A stretch of DNA of 64,000 nucleotides from Microbacterium sp. CGR2 (GTDB taxonomy: Bacteria > Actinomycetota > Actinomycetes > Actinomycetales > Microbacteriaceae), in assembly GCF_003626735.1 (NCBI RefSeq), contig NZ_RBHX01000001.1, positions 1,302,001-1,366,000 of the forward strand. Reading direction: 5' to 3'. The position numbers and the translations under genes were made by a program. This document shows, piece after piece, positions 17,667-60,795 of this stretch. Within the stretch, counting starts at the first letter, position 1, and every line of letters starts with the position of its first letter. The notes under the pieces are model-generated. The model was not told where the DNA came from. It saw only the letters and a program-made list of their open reading frames with translations, and made no database searches.

Positions 17667-20200
17667 GCCGTCTCCTCGGACTCGGCAGATTCCGCGGCGA
17701 GGGGCAGCGAGATGACCATCGTGAGACCCCCACCAGGAGTGTCCTCGGGTGTCAAAGTACCGCCCATGCCTTCGGTGAAACCGCGGGACAGGGCGAGGCC
17801 GAGACCGAGGCCGGTGGTGTTGTCGGTGTCGCCGAACCGTTGGAACGGTTCGAAGATGCTGTCGCGCCGCTCCGGGGCGATACCCGCACCGCGGTCGATG
17901 ATGCGGATTTCGGCGCGGTCGCCGAGCGCGCTGGTGGAGACGATGACCCTGTTGCCGGCGGGCGCGTGACGGTGGGCATTGGCGAGCACGTTGACGAGCA
18001 CGCGCTCCAGCAGCACAGGATCGGCCAGCAGTGGGGGCAGGTCGGCATCGAGGGCGAGCTCGACGTCGGCGGGCCCGAGGCCCAGTTCATCAACGGCCGC
18101 CAAGACGGGGCCGGCGGCATCGATCCGTGAGGCGGAGACGCCGAGCACTCCCGCCTGCACACGGCTCACATCCAGCAGGTCGGTGACGAGCGCCGAGAGC
18201 TTCGCGAGACTCTCGTCCGCGGTCTCCAGCAGCTCGGCGCGGTCTGAGGCGGACAGCTCCTGCGCGCCGCGAAGCCCTCCGATCGCGGCGACGGCCGACG
18301 CGAGAGGGCGGCGAAGATCGTGACTGACGGCGGAGAGCAGGGCGCTGCGCATCTGGTCGGTCTCGGCGAGAGCTTCGGCCTCGCGGGCGGTGGCGCGGAG
18401 GTCGGTGTGTTCGATGGCGGCTGACAGCTGCGCCACGATCGCGTCGAGCAGGCGGCGTTCCGGGCCGGCCAGGGGAGCGCCGTGCAACTCCAACGTCGCG
18501 CGCGCGACGCCATCCGCACCGACACCGACGGGTACGGTGCTGGCGCGCCCGTCGGCCACCGGTTCACCGTCACGGGCGATGACCTCTCCGTCGGGTGCGA
18601 GCAGGCGCACGCCGCTCAGTCCGAATGCCTCCCGGGTACGGCTGACCAGGGCGAGCACGGCGTTGTCGCCGCGGAGCACATTGCCGGCGACCGCGGCGAG
18701 GAGTTCGGCCTCCGCGGCCGCGCGCTGAGCGGTGCGAGCTCGCCGTGCGGCCTGGTCGACGATGATGCTCACGAGGATCGCGATCAGGACGTAGAGCGCG
18801 AGGGCGAGCACGTGCAGCGGATGGGCGACGGTGATGGTGAAGAGCGGCGCGACGAAGAGGAAGTCCAGCGTGACGCCGGAGAGAACCGCGGCGAACACGG
18901 CAGGGCGCACGCCGCCGATCAGAGCGACCACCACCACGAGCAGCTGATAGGCGAGCACTTCGGCCGTGATCGATTCGGGGCTGCGGTAGGTGAACATCAC
19001 CCACGAAAGGATGGGGCCGATCAGGAGGGCGACGCCGAAGCCGAGCAGCTGCCGTCGCCAGCCCAGCGCGCCGCCGGTGACCCGAGGGAGGGCGAGGCGC
19101 CCGCCGGCGGCCGCGTGCGTGACGATGTGCACGTCGATGTCGCCGGAGCGCCGGATCACCTCGGCGCCGATCCCCGGCCCTGTCACTGCGGCGGTCAGTC
19201 GGCCGCGCCTGCTGACCCCGATGACCAGCTGGGTGGCGTCGGCTCCCTGGGCGAATTCGACGAGGGTGCCGGGGATGTCGTCGCCGACGACCTGGTGGTA
19301 GCTGCCGCCGAGGGACTCCACAAGTGCCCGCTGCGCGGCGAGAGTGCCCGGCGTCTCATCGCGCAGCCCGTCCTGTGCGGAGACGTGCACGGCGAGCAGC
19401 TCTCCTCCGGCGGAGCGCGCCGCGATGCGGGCGCCTCGTCGCAGGAGCGTCTCACCCTCCGGTCCTCCGGTGAGCGCGACGACGACCCGCTCGCGAGCCT
19501 GCCAGGCGCTTTCGATGCCCTGCGCCGCGCGATACGTGCGCAGGGCGCTGTCGACCTCGTCGGCGAGCCAGAGAAGCGCGAGTTCTCGGAGCGCAGTGAG
19601 GTTGCCGAGGCGGAAGTAGTTCGACAGAGCCGCGTCGATACGCTCCGCCGGATACACCTGGCCGGCGGCGAGTCGATCGCGCAGCGACTGCGGGGCGAGG
19701 TCGACGACCTCGATCTCGTCGGCGGCACGGACCACGGCATCCGGGATGGTCTCCTGCTGGGCGATGCCGGTGATCTTCTCCACGACCGCGTTCAAAGACT
19801 CGACGTGCTGCACGTTGACGGTGGTGATGACGTCGATGCCCGCCGCGAGCAGCTGCTCGACGTCCTGCCACCGCTTCCGATGCTCGGACCCGGGACTGTT
19901 CGTGTGGGCGAGCTCGTCGACCAAAGCGATCTCGGGGGAACGGGCGAGGACGGCGCCGAGGTCGAGTTCGGTCAGGGGCACGCCGCGGTGATCGTCCACG
20001 CGGCGAGGGATCACCGGCAAGCCGACGGTCTGCGCCTGAGTCGCCGCCCGACCGTGGGTCTCGACGATCGCGATGACGACGTCGTGCCCTTCCTCCTGCA
20101 ACCGACGGCCTTCGCCGAGCATCTCGAAGGTCTTGCCGACGCCGGGGGCGGCGCCCAGCAGAACGCGAAGACGGCCGCGGTGTGACCGCTCTGCGCTCAT
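17663..20200 (-). CDS. kdpD: KdpD sensor histidine kinase
   Basis: An 845-residue membrane sensor kinase for potassium/turgor. The N-terminal KdpD domain carries Walker A GAAPGVGKT (about 16-24) and VDELAHTN. A universal-stress-protein-like domain follows (about 230-370). Four membrane helices lie at about residues 385-485, then a GAF-like segment. The dimerisation helix has the phospho-acceptor His near 627 in SAVSHDLRRPLAS, and the ATPase shows N (NVLANAHRHAP), G1 (DRGAGIAPE), F (FEPFQRFG) and G2 (GLGLGLAL) boxes. Full length for the family. It overlaps kdpC by four bases and kdpE by four. All domains look intact. Confidence 0.95.
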   Translation of the reverse strand: MSAERSHRGRLRVLLGAAPGVGKTFEMLGEGRRLQEEGHDVVIAIVETHGRAATQAQTVGLPVIPRRVDDHRGVPLTELDLGAVLARSPEIALVDELAHTNSPGSEHRKRWQDVEQLLAAGIDVITTVNVQHVESLNAVVEKITGIAQQETIPDAVVRAADEIEVVDLAPQSLRDRLAAGQVYPAERIDAALSNYFRLGNLTALRELALLWLADEVDSALRTYRAAQGIESAWQARERVVVALTGGPEGETLLRRGARIAARSAGGELLAVHVSAQDGLRDETPGTLAAQRALVESLGGSYHQVVGDDIPGTLVEFAQGADATQLVIGVSRRGRLTAAVTGPGIGAEVIRRSGDIDVHIVTHAAAGGRLALPRVTGGALGWRRQLLGFGVALLIGPILSWVMFTYRSPESITAEVLAYQLLVVVVALIGGVRPAVFAAVLSGVTLDFLFVAPLFTITVAHPLHVLALALYVLIAILVSIIVDQAARRARTAQRAAAEAELLAAVAGNVLRGDNAVLALVSRTREAFGLSGVRLLAPDGEVIARDGEPVADGRASTVPVGVGADGVARATLELHGAPLAGPERRLLDAIVAQLSAAIEHTDLRATAREAEALAETDQMRSALLSAVSHDLRRPLASAVAAIGGLRGAQELSASDRAELLETADESLAKLSALVTDLLDVSRVQAGVLGVSASRIDAAGPVLAAVDELGLGPADVELALDADLPPLLADPVLLERVLVNVLANAHRHAPAGNRVIVSTSALGDRAEIRIIDRGAGIAPERRDSIFEPFQRFGDTDNTTGLGLGLALSRGFTEGMGGTLTPEDTPGGGLTMVISLPLAAESAESEETA

Positions 20201-20799
20201 TCACTCTCCCGGTCGTCCAGCGCGAGGTTGAGTTCGGCGACGTTGATGCGTTGCTCGCCGAGGAATCCCAGATCCCGCCCTTGAATCCTAGACTCCACGA
20301 GGGTGCGCACCTCCTCCGTGCTCAGGCCTCTGGCCTCGGCGACGCGTGTGACCTGGAGCAGCGCGTACGCGACGCTGATGTGAGGATCGAGGCCGGAAGC
20401 GGACGCGGTGACGGCGTCGGCGGGGACTCCGTCGACGGAGACCCCCTCGCGCTCCGCGATCGCCGACCGGCGCTCCTCGATGGCCGCGACGAGGTCGGGG
20501 TTCTCCGGCCCGAGGTTGCTGCCACCGGACGCCGTGCCGTCGTAGCCGTCGCCGGCTGCCGACGGACGCGACTGGAAGTACTCGGGCAGCGCGTCGCCCT
20601 CGGCATCCTGGAACGACTGCCCGATGAGCGCGCTTCCCCGGTCGCCGTCCAGCGGGGAGCCGTTCGCCTGCCACGGCAACGCGAGCTGACCGATCCCGGT
20701 GACCAGCAGCGTGTACCCGACGCCGAGCACGAGGGTGAGGACGAGTATCGCGCGGACGGCGACGCCGGCGGTGCGGACAGTGCTGCGAGTGGATGACAT
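20197..20799 (-). CDS. kdpC: KdpC potassium-transporting ATPase subunit C
   Basis: A 200-residue subunit of the KdpFABC potassium pump, with one N-terminal membrane helix (about 11-35) and an outside-facing domain that helps the complex reach high K+ affinity. Family landmarks are YTLLVTGIGQL, GSALIGQSF, YFQSRPSAAG, the S-N-L-G-P-x-N-P motif, SASGLDPHISVAYA and the closing VNVAELNLALD-type segment (here INVAELNLALD). Forty-two bases separate it from kdpB; it overlaps kdpD by four bases. Length agrees with KdpC from other actinobacteria. Confidence 0.95.
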   Translation of the reverse strand: MSSTRSTVRTAGVAVRAILVLTLVLGVGYTLLVTGIGQLALPWQANGSPLDGDRGSALIGQSFQDAEGDALPEYFQSRPSAAGDGYDGTASGGSNLGPENPDLVAAIEERRSAIAEREGVSVDGVPADAVTASASGLDPHISVAYALLQVTRVAEARGLSTEEVRTLVESRIQGRDLGFLGEQRINVAELNLALDDRESE

Positions 20800-20841: not shown

Positions 20842-23112
20842 TCAGAAGCCGGGGATCAGGCTCATGAGGAGATCGATGAGCTTGATGCCGACGAAGGGGG
20901 CGACCACCCCGCCGAGGCCGTAGATCAACAGGTTGCGCTGCAGGATCTGCGAGGCGCTCGCCGGCCGGTACTTCACGCCCCGCAGCGCGAGGGGGATCAG
21001 GAAGACGATCACGATCGCGTTGAAGATGATCGCGCTCGTCACGGCGGATGCCGGGGAGTGCAGCTGCATCACGTTGAGCGCCGCGAGCCCGGGGAAGATG
21101 CCCATGAACATGGCGGGGATGATGGCGAAGTACTTCGCGACATCGTTGGCCAACGAGAACGTGGTGAGCGCACCCCGGGTGATCAGCAGCTGCTTGCCGA
21201 TGCGGACGATGTCGATGAGCTTCGTCGGGTCCGAGTCGAGGTCGACCATGTTGCCGGCCTCCTTCGCAGCCGACGTGCCGGTGTTCATCGCGACTCCGAC
21301 ATCCGCCTGCGCGAGTGCGGGAGCGTCATTCGTGCCGTCGCCGGTCATCGCGACCAGTCGCCCGCCCTCCTGCTCGCGTCGGATGAGGGCGAGCTTGTCC
21401 TCCGGGGTGGCCTCGGCGAGGAAGTCGTCGACTCCGGCCTCCGCGGCGATCGCCTTGGCTGTCAGCGGGTTGTCGCCCGTGATCATGACCGTGCGGATGC
21501 CCATGCTGCGGAGCTCCTCGAACCGCGCGCGGAGTCCGTCCTTCACGATGTCCTTCAGGTGCACGACGCCGAGGACCCGGGCGCCCTCCCTGTTGTTGCG
21601 TGCGACTTGTCGGGAGATTTCACGGATGTCGGCCCGATTCGCGGCATCCGGCCCGACATGTGTACTTTCTCCCGACAAGTGTGCCGCCGCAGGACTCGCG
21701 GGGACGACCGCGACGACGAGAGGTGTGCCGCCGCTCTGGGCGACAGCATCCGTTCTGGTGCTGAGTTCCTGGTCCACCTCGTCGAGACCGAGCCACGCCG
21801 CCACCGCGGACGCCGCACCCTTGCGGATCTGTGTGCCGTCGGCAAGGTCGAGGCCGCTCATGCGGGTCTGGGCGGTGAAGGGCACCACGACCGCATCCGC
21901 CGGCTGCTCGACCCGGATGTCGTGAGCCTCGGCGAGCTGGACGATCGAGGCGCCCTCGGGGGTGGGATCTGCGAGCGACGAGAGCGCGGCGACCCGCAGC
22001 AGCTCGTCGGCATCGACACCGGGGAGGGGAAGCACCTCGTGCGCTCGCCGGTTGCCGTACGTGATCGTGCCCGTCTTGTCGAGCAGCAGCGTGGTGACGT
22101 CGCCCGCGGCTTCGACCGCTCGCCCCGACATCGCCAGGACGTTGCGCTGCACGAGCCGGTCCATGCCCGCGATGCCGATGGCCGACAGCAGGGCGCCGAT
22201 GGTCGTGGGGATGAGACACACCAGCAGTGCGATCAGCACCGGGATGCTCACGGGAGACGCGGCATACGCGGCGATCGGGTTAAGCGCGAGGACCACCACG
22301 ACGAACACGATCGACAGGCTCGCGAGCAGGATGTTGAGGGCGATCTCGTTCGGCGTGCGCTGCCGACTCGCGCCCTCGACGAGAGCGATCATCCGGTCGA
22401 CGAAGGTCTCTCCCGGCTTCGAGGTGATGCGCACCACGATGCGGTCCGACAGCACCCGGGTTCCGCCGGTGACGGCGCTGCGATCACCGCCGGACTCGCG
22501 GACGACCGGGGCGCTCTCACCGGTGATCGCGGATTCGTCGACCGTCGCGATCCCGGCGATGATGTCGCCGTCACCGGGGACGAGCTCACCCGCGGACACG
22601 ACGACGACGTCGTCTCGCTGCAGCTCTGCCGACGAGACCTGCACCGTCTCGGCATGCTCGGCGGCCGCATCCGCCTTCTGGTCGTAGCCGACGACCTGTC
22701 GTGCCTGGGTGCTCGTCCGGGTCTCGCGCAGACTCGCGGCCTGGGCCTTGCCGCGGCCTTCCGCCACCGACTCGGCGACGTTGGCGAAGAACACCGTGAG
22801 CCACAACCAGACGGCGATTCCCCAGGTGAACGGCGCCGGGATGGGCGTGCCTCCGGAATCGGCGGGCCCGCCCAAGAACGGTTCGGCGACGGCGAGCACG
22901 GTGGTGAAGGCGGCGCCCACCCACACCAGCATCATCACGGGATTGCGGGCGAGGGCGGCGGGGTTGAGTTTGCGCACCGCGCCGGGCCCCGCCTCGACGA
23001 GTTGCGACCAGCCGAAGGCGCGGGCAGGTTTCGACTCGGTCTCGGTCGTTGAGCGAGCGGAGCGAGACGAAACGTCACGTGCGGCGGCAGGAGAGGTGGT
23101 GTCGATGGACAT
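20842..23112 (-). CDS. kdpB: KdpB P-type ATPase subunit with two repeat-derived insertions
   Basis: The catalytic P-type ATPase subunit of the KdpFABC pump; ATP drives phosphorylation of Asp345 in DKTGT. Also visible are TGES (actuator), [10 protein letters not shown] and [18 protein letters not shown] (P domain), and the conserved C-terminal helices. At 756 residues it is about 70 longer than E. coli KdpB (682). Part of the excess is a block of about 40 residues at 470-509, between TPLVVAV and [11 protein letters not shown], where other KdpB proteins as recalled have only a few residues (for example VVVEGSRVLGV). Residues 478-503 of it are encoded by a 76-bp double-hairpin repeat. A second repeat encodes residues 14-24. 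The frame is intact, so the gene should be expressed; the inserted loop lies at the N/P domain boundary. Confidence 0.93.
21605..21680 (-). repeat. 76-bp double-hairpin repeat element inside kdpB
   Basis: Perfect 13-bp terminal inverted repeats (ACTTGTCGGGAGA at 21605-21617, TCTCCCGACAAGT at 21668-21680) enclose a second hairpin with arms ATGTCGG and CCGACAT (21626-21632, 21653-21659, extendable to about 12 bp with two mismatches). Blocks TCGGGAG, TTTCAC, GGCCCG, CGGCATCCG and GACAAGTGTG recur in order in the intergenic element at 28747-28830. The element is read in frame as KdpB residues 478-503. Confidence 0.8.
23043..23073 (-). repeat. 31-bp dispersed repeat in the 5' end of kdpB
   Basis: Reverse complement of the sequence at 60678-60708 with one mismatch in 31. 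The core GAGCGAGCGGAGCGAG is rich in GAGCG/CGCTC. Here it is translated as KdpB residues 14-24 ([11 protein letters not shown]), within an N-terminal extension absent from E. coli KdpB. Confidence 0.8.
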
Positions 23113-23113
23113 G

Positions 23114-24793
23114 TCAGATGAGTCCTTCAGCGAGGGGGCCCAGCGCGAGCACGGGGAAATAGGTGAGTGCGGTGACGATCACGGTCACGGCGACGAGCAG
23201 GCCGACGAACTGCGGCCGATGGGTGGGGAGGGTGCCCGTGGTGGAGGGGATGCGCTCCTGCGCGGCGAGGGAGCCCGCCAGCGCCAGCACGAGCACGATC
23301 GGCAGGAATCGGCCGAGGAGCATCGCGACACCCAGTGCGGTGTTGAACCACGGGGTGTTCGCGGTGAGGCCGGCGAATGCCGAGCCGTTGTTGTTCGCGG
23401 CCGAGGTGAACGCGTAGAGCACTTCACTCATCCCGTGCACACCTGGATTGAGGATGCTCGTCGACTCGACGTCTTCGCGGATGCCCGGCACCGCGAAACT
23501 CAATGCCGTGCCCCCGAGGACGAGGGTCGGCACCACGAGGATGTAGAGGCTGGCGAGCTTGATCTCACGCGGTGTGATCCGCTTGCCGAGGTACTCCGGG
23601 GTGCGTCCGACGAGCAGGCCACCGACGAACACCGCGATGATCGCCAGCACCAGCATCCCGTACAGGCCGGAGCCGACCCCGCCGGGAGCGACCTCGCCGA
23701 GCATCATGTTCAGCATCGGCATCATGCCGCCGAGAGCCGTGTACGAGTCGTGCATCGAGTTGACGGCGCCGGTCGAGGTGAGCGTGCTGGCGCTGCCGAA
23801 GAGGGTGGAGCCGAGGATGCCGAAGCGCTGCTCCTTGCCCTCCAGAGCCGCTCCCGCGAGTTCCGGGGCGCTGCCTCGGCCGGCCAGCTCGATGGCCGAC
23901 AGTGCAAAGGTCGAGACGAGGAAGATCATGCCCATGACCGCGGCGATCGCATAGCCCTGGCGGTGGTCGCCGATCATGCGGCCGAACGTGCGGGGAAGGG
24001 CGAACGGGATCACGAGGATCAGCAGGATCTCGACGAGGTTCGTCCAGCCGGTCGGGTTCTCGAAGGGGTGGGCGGAGTTGGCGTTGAAGAACCCGCCGCC
24101 GTTCGTGCCGAGGAGCTTGATCGCCTCCTGCGAGGCGACCGGGCCGCCCGGGAGAGTCTGCGTTCCGCCGGAGACCGTGGTGACGTCGGTGAATCCGCCG
24201 AAGTTCTGAATGACCCCGCCGGCGAGGAGCGTCACCGCGCCGATCAGCGCGAGCGGGACGAGCAGGCGTCCGAGGCCGCGGGTCAGATCGACCCAGAAGT
24301 TCCCGATCGTCGGTGAGGCACGGCGTGCGAGGCCGCGGATCAGCGCGATCGCGATCGCGAGGCCGACCGCTGCGGAGACGAAGTTCTGCACGGTGAGGCC
24401 GGCGAGCTGAACGACGTAGCCCATCGTCTGCTCGGGCGAGTAGGACTGCCAGTTCGTATTGGCGACGAACGACGCCGCGGTGTTGAACGCGAGCCCCTCG
24501 GGCACGGCGGGCAGGCCGAGCGAGGCGGGCAGGAACGCCTGCAGTCGTTGCAGTCCGTAGACGAGAAGGAAGCCCACCAGTGAGAAGGCGAGGACGCTTC
24601 GTGCGTATGCGCGCCAGGTCTGCTCCGCGCGGGAGTCGACGCCGATGAGGCGGTACAGGCCGCGTTCGATGCGGAGATCGCGCGGAGACGAGTAGACGTG
24701 GGCGATGTAGTCGCCGAGGGGGCGATACAGCACGACGAGCACGACCACGACGGCGATGGCCTGCAGGATGCCGAACCAGATCGACGCGTCCAT
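23114..24793 (-). CDS. kdpA: KdpA potassium-binding and translocating subunit
   Basis: The 559-residue channel-like subunit of the Kdp pump, of the superfamily of K+ transporters, with about ten membrane helices and four repeated selectivity segments. Landmarks are [10 protein letters not shown] near the N-terminus, [19 protein letters not shown], the second selectivity segment [20 protein letters not shown] and a later [18 protein letters not shown], all hallmarks of KdpA. It starts one base past the kdpF stop (ATG inside ATGA) and ends one base before kdpB. No truncation or unusual insertion is visible. Confidence 0.96.
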
Positions 24794-25019: not shown

Positions 25020-25354
25020 GCTGTCGATCCAACTCCCGCGCGGGCTCCGCTTCCGCGATCCTCACGCTTTCCCTACGGTTTCCCGCCCGACCCATGCGCG
25101 TTGCTCACGGCATCCGACTTTCTGCGCGGGCTCCGGTCGCACTTTCGGCCGGGCTGGCCGGTCTCCTTTCCGTTCCGGTCGCACTTTCGGCCGGGCTGGT
25201 CGGCCGGAGGCGGCGGCAACTGCGACCGGAATCGACGCCTACTGGTCGGTAGTAGCACGAACTGCGACCGGAGCGGTCGACCCTCACGAAATCGTTCAAG
25301 GGGGCGTCGCGGATCCACAGCCCATTCCGATCACGAACCCGTAACGTCGAGGAC
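25020..25354. other. Intergenic region between the kdp operon and the alarmone synthetase
   Basis: A 335-base gap between two divergent transcription units. It must hold the kdp promoter and that of the synthetase, yet no convincing -35/-10 pair was picked out. Much of it is occupied by four copies of the CCGGTCGCA repeat. No riboswitch fold or further ORF with a plausible ribosome site was recognised. Confidence 0.6.
25131..25273. repeat. CCGGTCGCA repeat family, locus A (four copies)
   Basis: Two direct copies begin TCCGGTCGCACTTTCGGCC (25132 and 25174; each about 26 bases, identical to GGGCTGG). Two copies follow in opposite orientation with core AACTGCGACCGGA (25218-25230 and 25260-25272). 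The copies can pair as inverted repeats. The same core appears at 56232-56331. Confidence 0.75.
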
Positions 25355-28729: not shown

Positions 28730-28746
28730 CACGCCGTCTGCTCGCG

Positions 28747-28830
28747 CACACACGTCGGGAGCTTTCACACACGTAGGCCCGTAACCGGGCATACGTGCCG
28801 GCATCCGTGAAAAGTCCAGACAAGTGTGTG
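28747..28830. repeat. 84-bp double-hairpin element between moaE and moaD
   Basis: Outer arms CACACACGTCGGGAG...TTTCAC and GTGAAAAGTCCAGACAAGTGTGTG pair with a few mismatches. The inner hairpin has arms ACGTAGGCCCG and CGGGCATACGT around TAAC. Shared ordered blocks with the kdpB element (TCGGGAG, TTTCAC, GGCCCG, CGGCATCCG, GACAAGTGTG) mark one family. Its position between convergent genes would also let it act as a bidirectional terminator. Confidence 0.75.
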
Positions 28831-28849
28831 GAGGTCGGGAGGGCCCGCA

Positions 28850-29083
28850 TCAACCGCCGGCGAAGGGCGGGAGGACATCGATGAGCTGCGCGTCGTCGAG
28901 GGGGCGGTCGTCGTCCGCCCGCACACCGTCGATCATCACCGCGCAGCGCGGCAGGATGTCGGCGAGGGCCGGATGCTCCGCGACGACGGCGGCACGGAGG
29001 GCGGAGAGCGAGCGCTCGCCGCGTTCCTCCTGATCCACGCCGGCGGCTTCGGCCGCTGCCGCGAAGTAGCGCACGCGGGTCAT
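28850..29083 (-). CDS. moaD: Molybdopterin synthase sulfur-carrier subunit MoaD
   Basis: A 77-residue ubiquitin-fold sulfur carrier. It ends in the required Gly-Gly (LPPFAGG), which is adenylated by MoeB and then thiocarboxylated, and it starts with the usual VRYFAAAAEAAG strand-helix pair. The ATG at 29083 lies inside an overlap with moaC (ATGA), which fixes the start; the longer frame upstream is a moaC shadow. It is the last gene of the minus-strand unit moeB-moeA-moaC-moaD and meets moaE convergently, so the two halves of the synthase are made from opposite strands. Confidence 0.93.
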   Translation of the reverse strand: MTRVRYFAAAAEAAGVDQEERGERSLSALRAAVVAEHPALADILPRCAVMIDGVRADDDRPLDDAQLIDVLPPFAGG

Positions 29084-56197: not shown

Positions 56198-56231
56198 GGC
56201 CCCGAGCCTATCCGGAGGTGCGAGCTTGACG

Positions 56232-56331
56232 TTCCGGTCGCAGTTGCTGCCGTGATGCGCCCGGCACCGATGCTCCGGTCGCAGTTACTGCCGTCACAGC
56301 GTCGTCGATCCGGCACGAAGTGCGACCGGAA
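56232..56331. repeat. CCGGTCGCA repeat family, locus B (three copies)
   Basis: TTCCGGTCGCAGTT (56232-56245), CTCCGGTCGCAGTT (56273-56286) and, inverted, AAGTGCGACCGGAA (56318-56331). The two direct copies are both followed by a G-C-T-G-C-C or A-C-T-G-C-C. The inverted one can pair with either. Same core as the intergenic region at 25131-25273. It fills most of the 202-base gap downstream of the hypothetical membrane protein. Confidence 0.75.
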
Positions 56332-56399
56332 CAGACGAGCGGATGCCCAAGTGACACGAACCGAGACCGGAAACCGCAACGCTCGACGGCAACTTGCTC

Positions 56400-60677: not shown

Positions 60678-60708
60678 GTTTCGTCTCGCTTCGCTCGCTC
60701 AACGACCG
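60678..60708 (+). repeat. 31-bp dispersed repeat upstream of the ABC ATPase
   Basis: Matches the reverse complement of the copy in kdpB (23043-23073) with one mismatch. It runs from GTTTCGTCTCGC through CGCTCGCTCAACGACCG. Its 3' end is the first part of the adjacent 26-bp tandem repeats. Confidence 0.85.
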
Positions 60709-60795
60709 GGTGCCGCCCGCTCGCTCAACGACCGGGTGCCGCCCGCTCGCTCAACGACCGGGTGCCACCCGCTCGCTCAACGACCGGGTGCCGCC
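60692..60795 (+). repeat. Four tandem 26-bp repeats between binding protein and ATPase genes
   Basis: Four head-to-tail 26-bp units starting at 60692, 60718, 60744 and 60770; each begins CGCTCGCTCAACGACCGGG and ends in GCCGCC, the third with one substitution (GCCACC). The 5' half of each unit equals the end of the 31-bp dispersed repeat. No spacers, so not a CRISPR. The array sits 27 bases before the ATPase start. Confidence 0.92.

Follow-up and report, generated by a model that had tools for sequence, protein, structure and literature searches.

Dispersed palindromes that keep company with an enzyme gene have been described as repetitive extragenic palindromes (REPs and REPINs) with their REP-associated tyrosine transposases (RAYT/TnpA-REP), where mostly intergenic copies are scattered through the genome and a single nuclease-type gene is flanked by palindromes of matching motif (PMC8266576; PMC3116915, as far as the accessible parts of these sources go). 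The Rickettsia palindromic elements (RPEs) comprise several families of palindromes found in frame in unrelated genes (PMC10969869, accessible part). AbiEi antitoxins, according to the accessible part of PMC7319586, autoregulate their operon, and members of the family bind 23-bp inverted repeats arranged in twos and fours. Here we describe an 86-bp palindromic element, family A, that lies in frame within kdpB of Microbacterium sp. CGR2, in a 64,000-nucleotide stretch of its genome (the window; contig NZ_RBHX01000001.1, positions 1,302,001 to 1,366,000). The presence of a dispersed element in KdpB is near certain. In our best reading it belongs to a partnership of the REP/RAYT kind with an unrelated nuclease, in which solo copies sometimes enter proteins; the KdpB insert would then be the terminal element of a two-part DUF559 system in solo form, a reading to which we assign a probability of roughly 0.58.

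The family A element in kdpB and in the genome

In the following, G numbers denote genomes (G000 being that of Microbacterium sp. CGR2, the others those of relatives), L numbers denote loci, R1 is a covariance model of family A and E is the expectation value.

20842 to 23112, minus strand: kdpB (TIGR01497)
21586 to 21705, minus strand: extra stretch, kdpB codons 470-509, absent from Escherichia coli KdpB
21600 to 21685, no strand assigned: family A element inside kdpB, 86 bp (R1 match G000:C1:1323600-1323685, E 3.7e-19)
21605 to 21617, plus strand: left 13-bp arm, exact
21668 to 21680, minus strand: right 13-bp arm, inverted, exact

A sequence-only reading of this stretch had proposed a mobile double-hairpin element, bounded by perfect 13-bp inverted repeats, that adds about 40 residues to KdpB at the boundary of its N and P domains. 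The inverted repeats ACTTGTCGGGAGA indeed show 0 mismatches in each arm, and the 86-bp element forms a nested palindrome in frame within an intact kdpB, whose 756-amino-acid product contains 0 internal stops and scores 965 bits with TIGR01497 (cut-off 528). Residues 35-468 and 509-752 align with E. coli KdpB (6hra_B), and since residues 434 and 435 of the latter are adjacent in this alignment, about 40 residues are extra in the protein studied here; about 28 of them come from the element and the remainder is flank, so that the proposed figure holds for the protein but not for the element itself. The domain placement is approximate: an AlphaFold2 model (26 sequences, mean pLDDT 75.4, pTM 0.61) puts the insert, as a turn, between strands 463-470 and 512-523, with mean pLDDT values of 66 and 50 over residues 471-490 and of 70-71 over residues 491-510, which are modelled as a helix. 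The insert would thus fit an exposed turn, the model saying nothing on function.

The nested palindrome is real at the DNA level as well (fold of 21600-21690 with z = -4.4, an equally good fold being reached in 0 of 200 shuffles). The conserved bases, however, belong to a site like ACnnnTGnCGGG that occurs four times, twice in direct and twice in inverted orientation, at intervals of about 19 bp, and the element is therefore better called a four-site array with inverted symmetry than a conserved double hairpin. A conserved RNA hairpin was rejected as an explanation, because compensatory change was seen in 0 of 15 consensus pairs (RNAalifold, 16 own-genome copies) and no Rfam match over the gathering score was found among 11 loci.

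With a 91-bp query, BLAST returned 45 matches in the own genome, counting both strands and weak matches. R1 was built from an alignment (A1) of 16 own-genome copies with a mean column identity of 75%, five places found later being left out, and gave 43 matches that correspond to 21 places at E 5.8e-9 or better and one at 0.06. The 76-bp sequence singled out earlier is thus anything but unique, and all 21 places are 85-87 bp long, the kdpB insert sharing 82% over 81 bases with a copy elsewhere in the genome. Calls based on open reading frames placed 18 of the 21 between genes and 3 inside genes, of which those at 299203 (taken to lie upstream of an ArfB-like gene) and C2:147880 (taken to be a 5' over-extension of a DUF559 frame) were discarded, leaving kdpB as the sole clear coding copy; many solo copies lie directly past gene ends. 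A match at E <= 0.001 was obtained in 82 of the 198 genus genomes, at most 22 candidates being scored per genome.

The second copy in the window contains the same sequence blocks, as had been noticed before, and lies between genes read as moaE and moaD.

28745 to 28830, no strand assigned: second family A copy, intergenic (R1 E 1e-15; absent from the spacer in nine relatives)

The surrounding region was matched in 21 of 38 relatives searched, nine of which were inspected. The orthologous spacer measures 0-13 bp in G005, G015, G016, G011, G010 and G019, about 74 bp in G013 and about 43 bp in G017, and R1 found the element in none of the nine relatives' spacers, the G000 spacer being positive at E 1e-17; the sole hit touching a relative's spacer was in G010 (14 bits, E 0.05). 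The proposal that a mobile intergenic element became part of a protein is supported by this dispersed, mostly intergenic family with a copy in KdpB. As a separate observation, the spacer of G002 (L417) orthologous to window positions 28730-28850 has a similar length and holds a different sequence containing the inverted repeat CACCTGCATGA ... TCATGCAGGTG, which may be a further element of this kind.

Pairing of the element with DUF559 genes

On G000:C2 one DUF559 gene is enclosed by two family A copies that lie 1034 bp from each other, and the same arrangement is found in G115:C9 and G065:C22; these three genes share one neighbourhood and therefore represent one event. Their products match DUF559 (PF04480) with 29.7-32.7 bits (curated cut-off 20.6), and that of G000 matches AbiEi_4 too, AbiEi-type profiles likewise matching in PADLOC. 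E, D and ExD-like residues, which we take to be the motif of the nuclease fold, are retained in most of 19 aligned DUF559 proteins. The DUF559 domain is matched three times in the own genome and at least once in 195 of the 198 genus genomes.

Pairing was assessed in a genus set made up of the own three loci and 30 of the best-scoring domain matches, which is not a random sample. R1 pairs were present at 7 of these 33 loci, 1016-1063 bp apart, the weakest member having an E of 0.04. In a comparison independent of R1, 420 bp upstream and downstream of 32 loci (L323 being too short) were compared with each other and set against 1500 random pairs of the same geometry; the shared flank repeat exceeded the 99th percentile of these controls in 24 of the 32 loci and their maximum in 21. 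Among loci of the order outside the genus, it lay above all 100 own shuffles in 10 of 27. The pairing of palindromes with DUF559 genes is strong in the genus sample and moderate beyond it.

The inserts of the eight genomes with a family A element in KdpB (A-type) were compared with 63 of 71 DUF559 loci from 14 genomes. The best own-genome scores were 98 for G065, 66 for G000, 58 for G125, 54 for G021, 53 for G124, 41 for both G134 and G186 and 25 for G126, and the own genome ranked first of 14 for five inserts (G000, G065, G125, G021 and G124). For G134 and G186 the best flank was found in a sister genome, G125 (59) and G124 (52) respectively, so that 7 of 8 A-type inserts have their best flank in their own (5) or a sister (2) genome; 7 of 8 also score higher than any of 60 shuffled inserts. 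The summed score was reached by 1 of 100,000 random assignments in a permutation that ignores kinship. The DUF559 gene has matches on either side in G000, G065, G125, G124 and G021; the matches in G134 and G186 are shorter or weaker. The clear case is G021, where the variant TTTGTCGGGAGGATTC is common to insert and flank.

A second duo occurs in the own genome, where family D stands on either side of locus L302, whose DUF559 protein is more distantly related. This family, a four-site palindrome of the GGTCGCAGTT type, is present twice in the window.

25121 to 25231: family D copy
56227 to 56335: family D copy

Another close family A pair (1090541/1092608) brackets genes read as a MerR-type regulator and a major facilitator superfamily (MFS) transporter; other kinds of genes lying between its members, it was rejected as an autonomous unit.

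Repeats in the KdpB loop and in other proteins

KdpB was found in 126 of the 198 genus genomes, and 123 loci were used, three fragmentary ones being omitted. Of these, 120 loops could be parsed (L172, L222 and L225 falling outside), with lengths taken after four anchors had been re-placed: 75 have at most 12 amino acids, 19 have 13-19 and 26 have at least 20, with a maximum of 102. Eight of the 26 long loops carry family A, four family B and ten family C, and four are without a family, so that 22 of 26 contain a palindromic family; by DNA motif, 13 genus loops belong to family C and 4 to family B. The eight family A loops were assigned by eye from their architecture and R1 was run afterwards on 38 KdpB loci, where it recovered 7 of the 8 at E 6.6e-5 or better and L034 at 0.057, none of the other 30 falling below 0.3. 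The insert of G125 is 88% identical to a copy in the same genome, and the G125 query matches a second place in G134 with 89%. On a FastTree phylogeny of KdpB proteins without the loop, Fitch counts were 6 for A, 4 for B, 11 for C and 21 for the long-loop state, counts that mix gain and loss on a tree with some poorly supported nodes. Among 80 related named loci, 55 loops were parsed and 51 have at most 15 amino acids, the longest having 26 and, in Microbacterium mangrovi (C-like), 24. The same 40 residues are thus not common to all relatives, which have short loops or other repeats here, and there is strong evidence for a hotspot in KdpB at which at least three families of repeats have settled.

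Two side observations concern this loop and family B. The short loop of L053 (G039) retains GGCCCTTCGA, with which the family C insert of its neighbour L032 (G028) begins, and resembles what a deletion of the insert between its arms would leave. In the window, a family B palindrome at 60679-60760 is followed by tandem pieces of its arm, and half of family B also occurs in the KdpB N-terminus; the latter and the neighbouring kdp genes are located as follows.

20197 to 20799, minus strand: kdpC (PRK00315, TIGR00681)
23047 to 23072, plus strand: half of a family B palindrome, in frame as KdpB residues ~14-22 (exact pattern match, 0 expected in shuffles)
23114 to 24793, minus strand: kdpA (TIGR00680)

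KdpB is not the only protein to contain family A. Among 22 genus loci, 16 are intergenic, 5 lie inside a frame and 1 (kdpB of G126) is at a contig edge. The element occurs in the linker of a two-domain energy-coupling factor (ECF) transporter ATPase in G123 and G032 and at the C-terminus of a DUF2520 protein in G059; L236, which has no Pfam match, and L233, where the element lies beyond the last domain, were not counted as coding cases. The ECF ATPase of G123 (L242), with family A at residues ~288-317, also has a later loop with LRQAQGSG in its second domain that looks like a family C piece. The coding copies compared share one frame, S-G-E-x-T-D-A-G ... D-I-R-x-x-S-R-Q-V (TGTCGGG type). Of 40 strand readings of 20 other own-genome copies, 34 contain no stop in this frame, compared with 28 and 22 in the other two, and its being most often open therefore explains part of the frame choice. 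As in protein-coding palindromic elements, the copy in KdpB is in frame in a conserved gene and the same family occurs elsewhere in the genome.

Possible origins of the insert and related systems

The system as we picture it would consist of one DUF559 gene, flanked on each side by an 86-bp element, and of many solo elements elsewhere in the genome; the gene product would combine an AbiEi-like winged-helix N-terminus with a PD-(D/E)XK Vsr-like C-terminus. The winged-helix domain may bind the four ACnnnTGnCGGG sites, the nuclease domain may cut at the element or close to it, and the element would then be copied to new places by repair or strand transfer; we thus infer that DUF559 is the enzyme that moves it. 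Most copies would last only in spacers. The turn between two strands in KdpB would tolerate extra residues, so a frame-keeping copy could persist there as a flexible surface loop, and other repeat families would use the same permissive spot. The directly observed facts behind this reading are the dispersal at constant length, the element-free orthologous spacer in relatives, the pairing with DUF559 genes and the motif agreement of insert and flank in the same or a sister genome. For the wider proposal, that a class of mobile palindromes in Actinobacteria is spread by AbiEi-DUF559 proteins, whose restriction-type fold is not known from transposases, each protein having a cognate four-site element of about 86 bp, and that solo copies enter proteins in one preferred frame with Microbacterium KdpB as a recurrent landing place, we see even odds.

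Several results weigh against a DUF559 origin. The insert of G126 ranks its own genome 13 of 14 across the two DUF559 loci there, with G065 (47) as its best match; G110 (44) and G083 (42) also outscore the own genome for G134, as does G021 (42) for G186; and the permutation of assignments takes no account of kinship. No clear shared flank was seen in 8 of the 32 genus loci and in 17 of the 27 loci from the order. The KdpB loop is also filled by families B and C, which have no DUF559 link, and DUF559 is not supported as their agent, own scores being at most 34 in G057, G110, G114, G062, G083 and G195. Transposition was not observed, and a comparison of empty and filled KdpB loops identified no target duplication, the boundaries being ambiguous. 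Finally, a Caulobacter DUF559 protein has been interpreted as a mismatch-repair enzyme (PMC12907096, accessible part).

The flanking elements might instead be operators through which an AbiEi-like domain represses its own gene, the dispersed copies being regulatory or terminator-like and spread otherwise. AbiEi-family antitoxins do repress their own operon via two or four inverted repeats (PMC7319586, accessible part) and many solo copies lie just beyond gene ends, but the repeat stands on both sides of the DUF559 gene and not upstream alone, the copies inside kdpB and the ECF ATPase linker are away from promoters, and relatives lack the copy at the same spacer; operators would also leave the spread of copies unexplained, and we consider them rather unlikely. 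It is still less probable that the element is an ordinary miniature inverted-repeat transposable element (MITE) of an insertion sequence (IS) or transposase outside this genome, with DUF559 as a passenger, making use of such elements or lying within them. MITEs resemble the element in inverted symmetry, constant length, dispersal and the occurrence of solo copies, and in-frame fusions made by MITEs are known (PMC10969869, accessible part); yet the motif variants follow the DUF559 flanks genome by genome, and the pair 1090541/1092608 brackets no transposase, although transposases with these ends were not searched for systematically. The tandem or low-complexity stretches in some long loops (L036, parts of L138 and L033) could suggest a slowly lengthening low-complexity loop with a palindrome arising by coincidence. 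For family A this is already contradicted by the 21 own-genome places, and the inserts match same-genome copies at the identities given above for G000 and G125; we regard such an origin as scarcely credible.

Compared with described systems, the DUF559-partnered element shares features with several. AbiEi antitoxins and Vsr-like DUF559 proteins have the same AbiEi_4 and DUF559 domains, and dispersed repeats are not described for the antitoxins in the accessible part of PMC7319586 nor for the mismatch-repair protein in that of PMC12907096, where 'palindrom' and 'transpos' occur 0 times. At the level of titles and abstracts, none of the matches listed from the open literature dealt with palindromes in KdpB, with protein-coding palindromes in Microbacterium or with DUF559 and palindromic repeats, DUF559 being named in body text only.

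MITEs are likewise short and non-autonomous with inverted symmetry, but a transposase and a target duplication were not found here (without a systematic transposase search), and there are two sites at each end of the element. Two sites per end is a feature of inverted-repeat/direct-repeat (IR/DR) ends. Between close family A pairs on G000:C2 only DUF559 was seen, no systematic search for an autonomous element having been made. RPEs proper are Rickettsia elements of about 150 bp, nearly half of them in open reading frames, unlike the 86-bp Microbacterium element, of whose 21 own-genome copies one is clearly coding and which has a candidate partner enzyme. The KdpB loop is a natural record of repeats turned protein, and as it lies in a pump with solved structures, it becomes testable whether such inserts are neutral or useful.

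A RAYT was rejected as the agent, since Y1_Tnp (PF01797) gave 0 matches at E <= 1 in the own genome, 10 of 14 controls being positive. REPs are 20-50 nt long, carry a GTAG-type tag and are paired with a HuH tyrosine enzyme, in contrast to the 86 bp, four sites and DUF559 (PD-(D/E)XK) protein found here. If DUF559 proteins do move palindromes, a common family now labelled as of unknown function or by its AbiEi domain would gain a role, and the HuH RAYTs would be joined by a second class of enzymes that partner dispersed palindromes.
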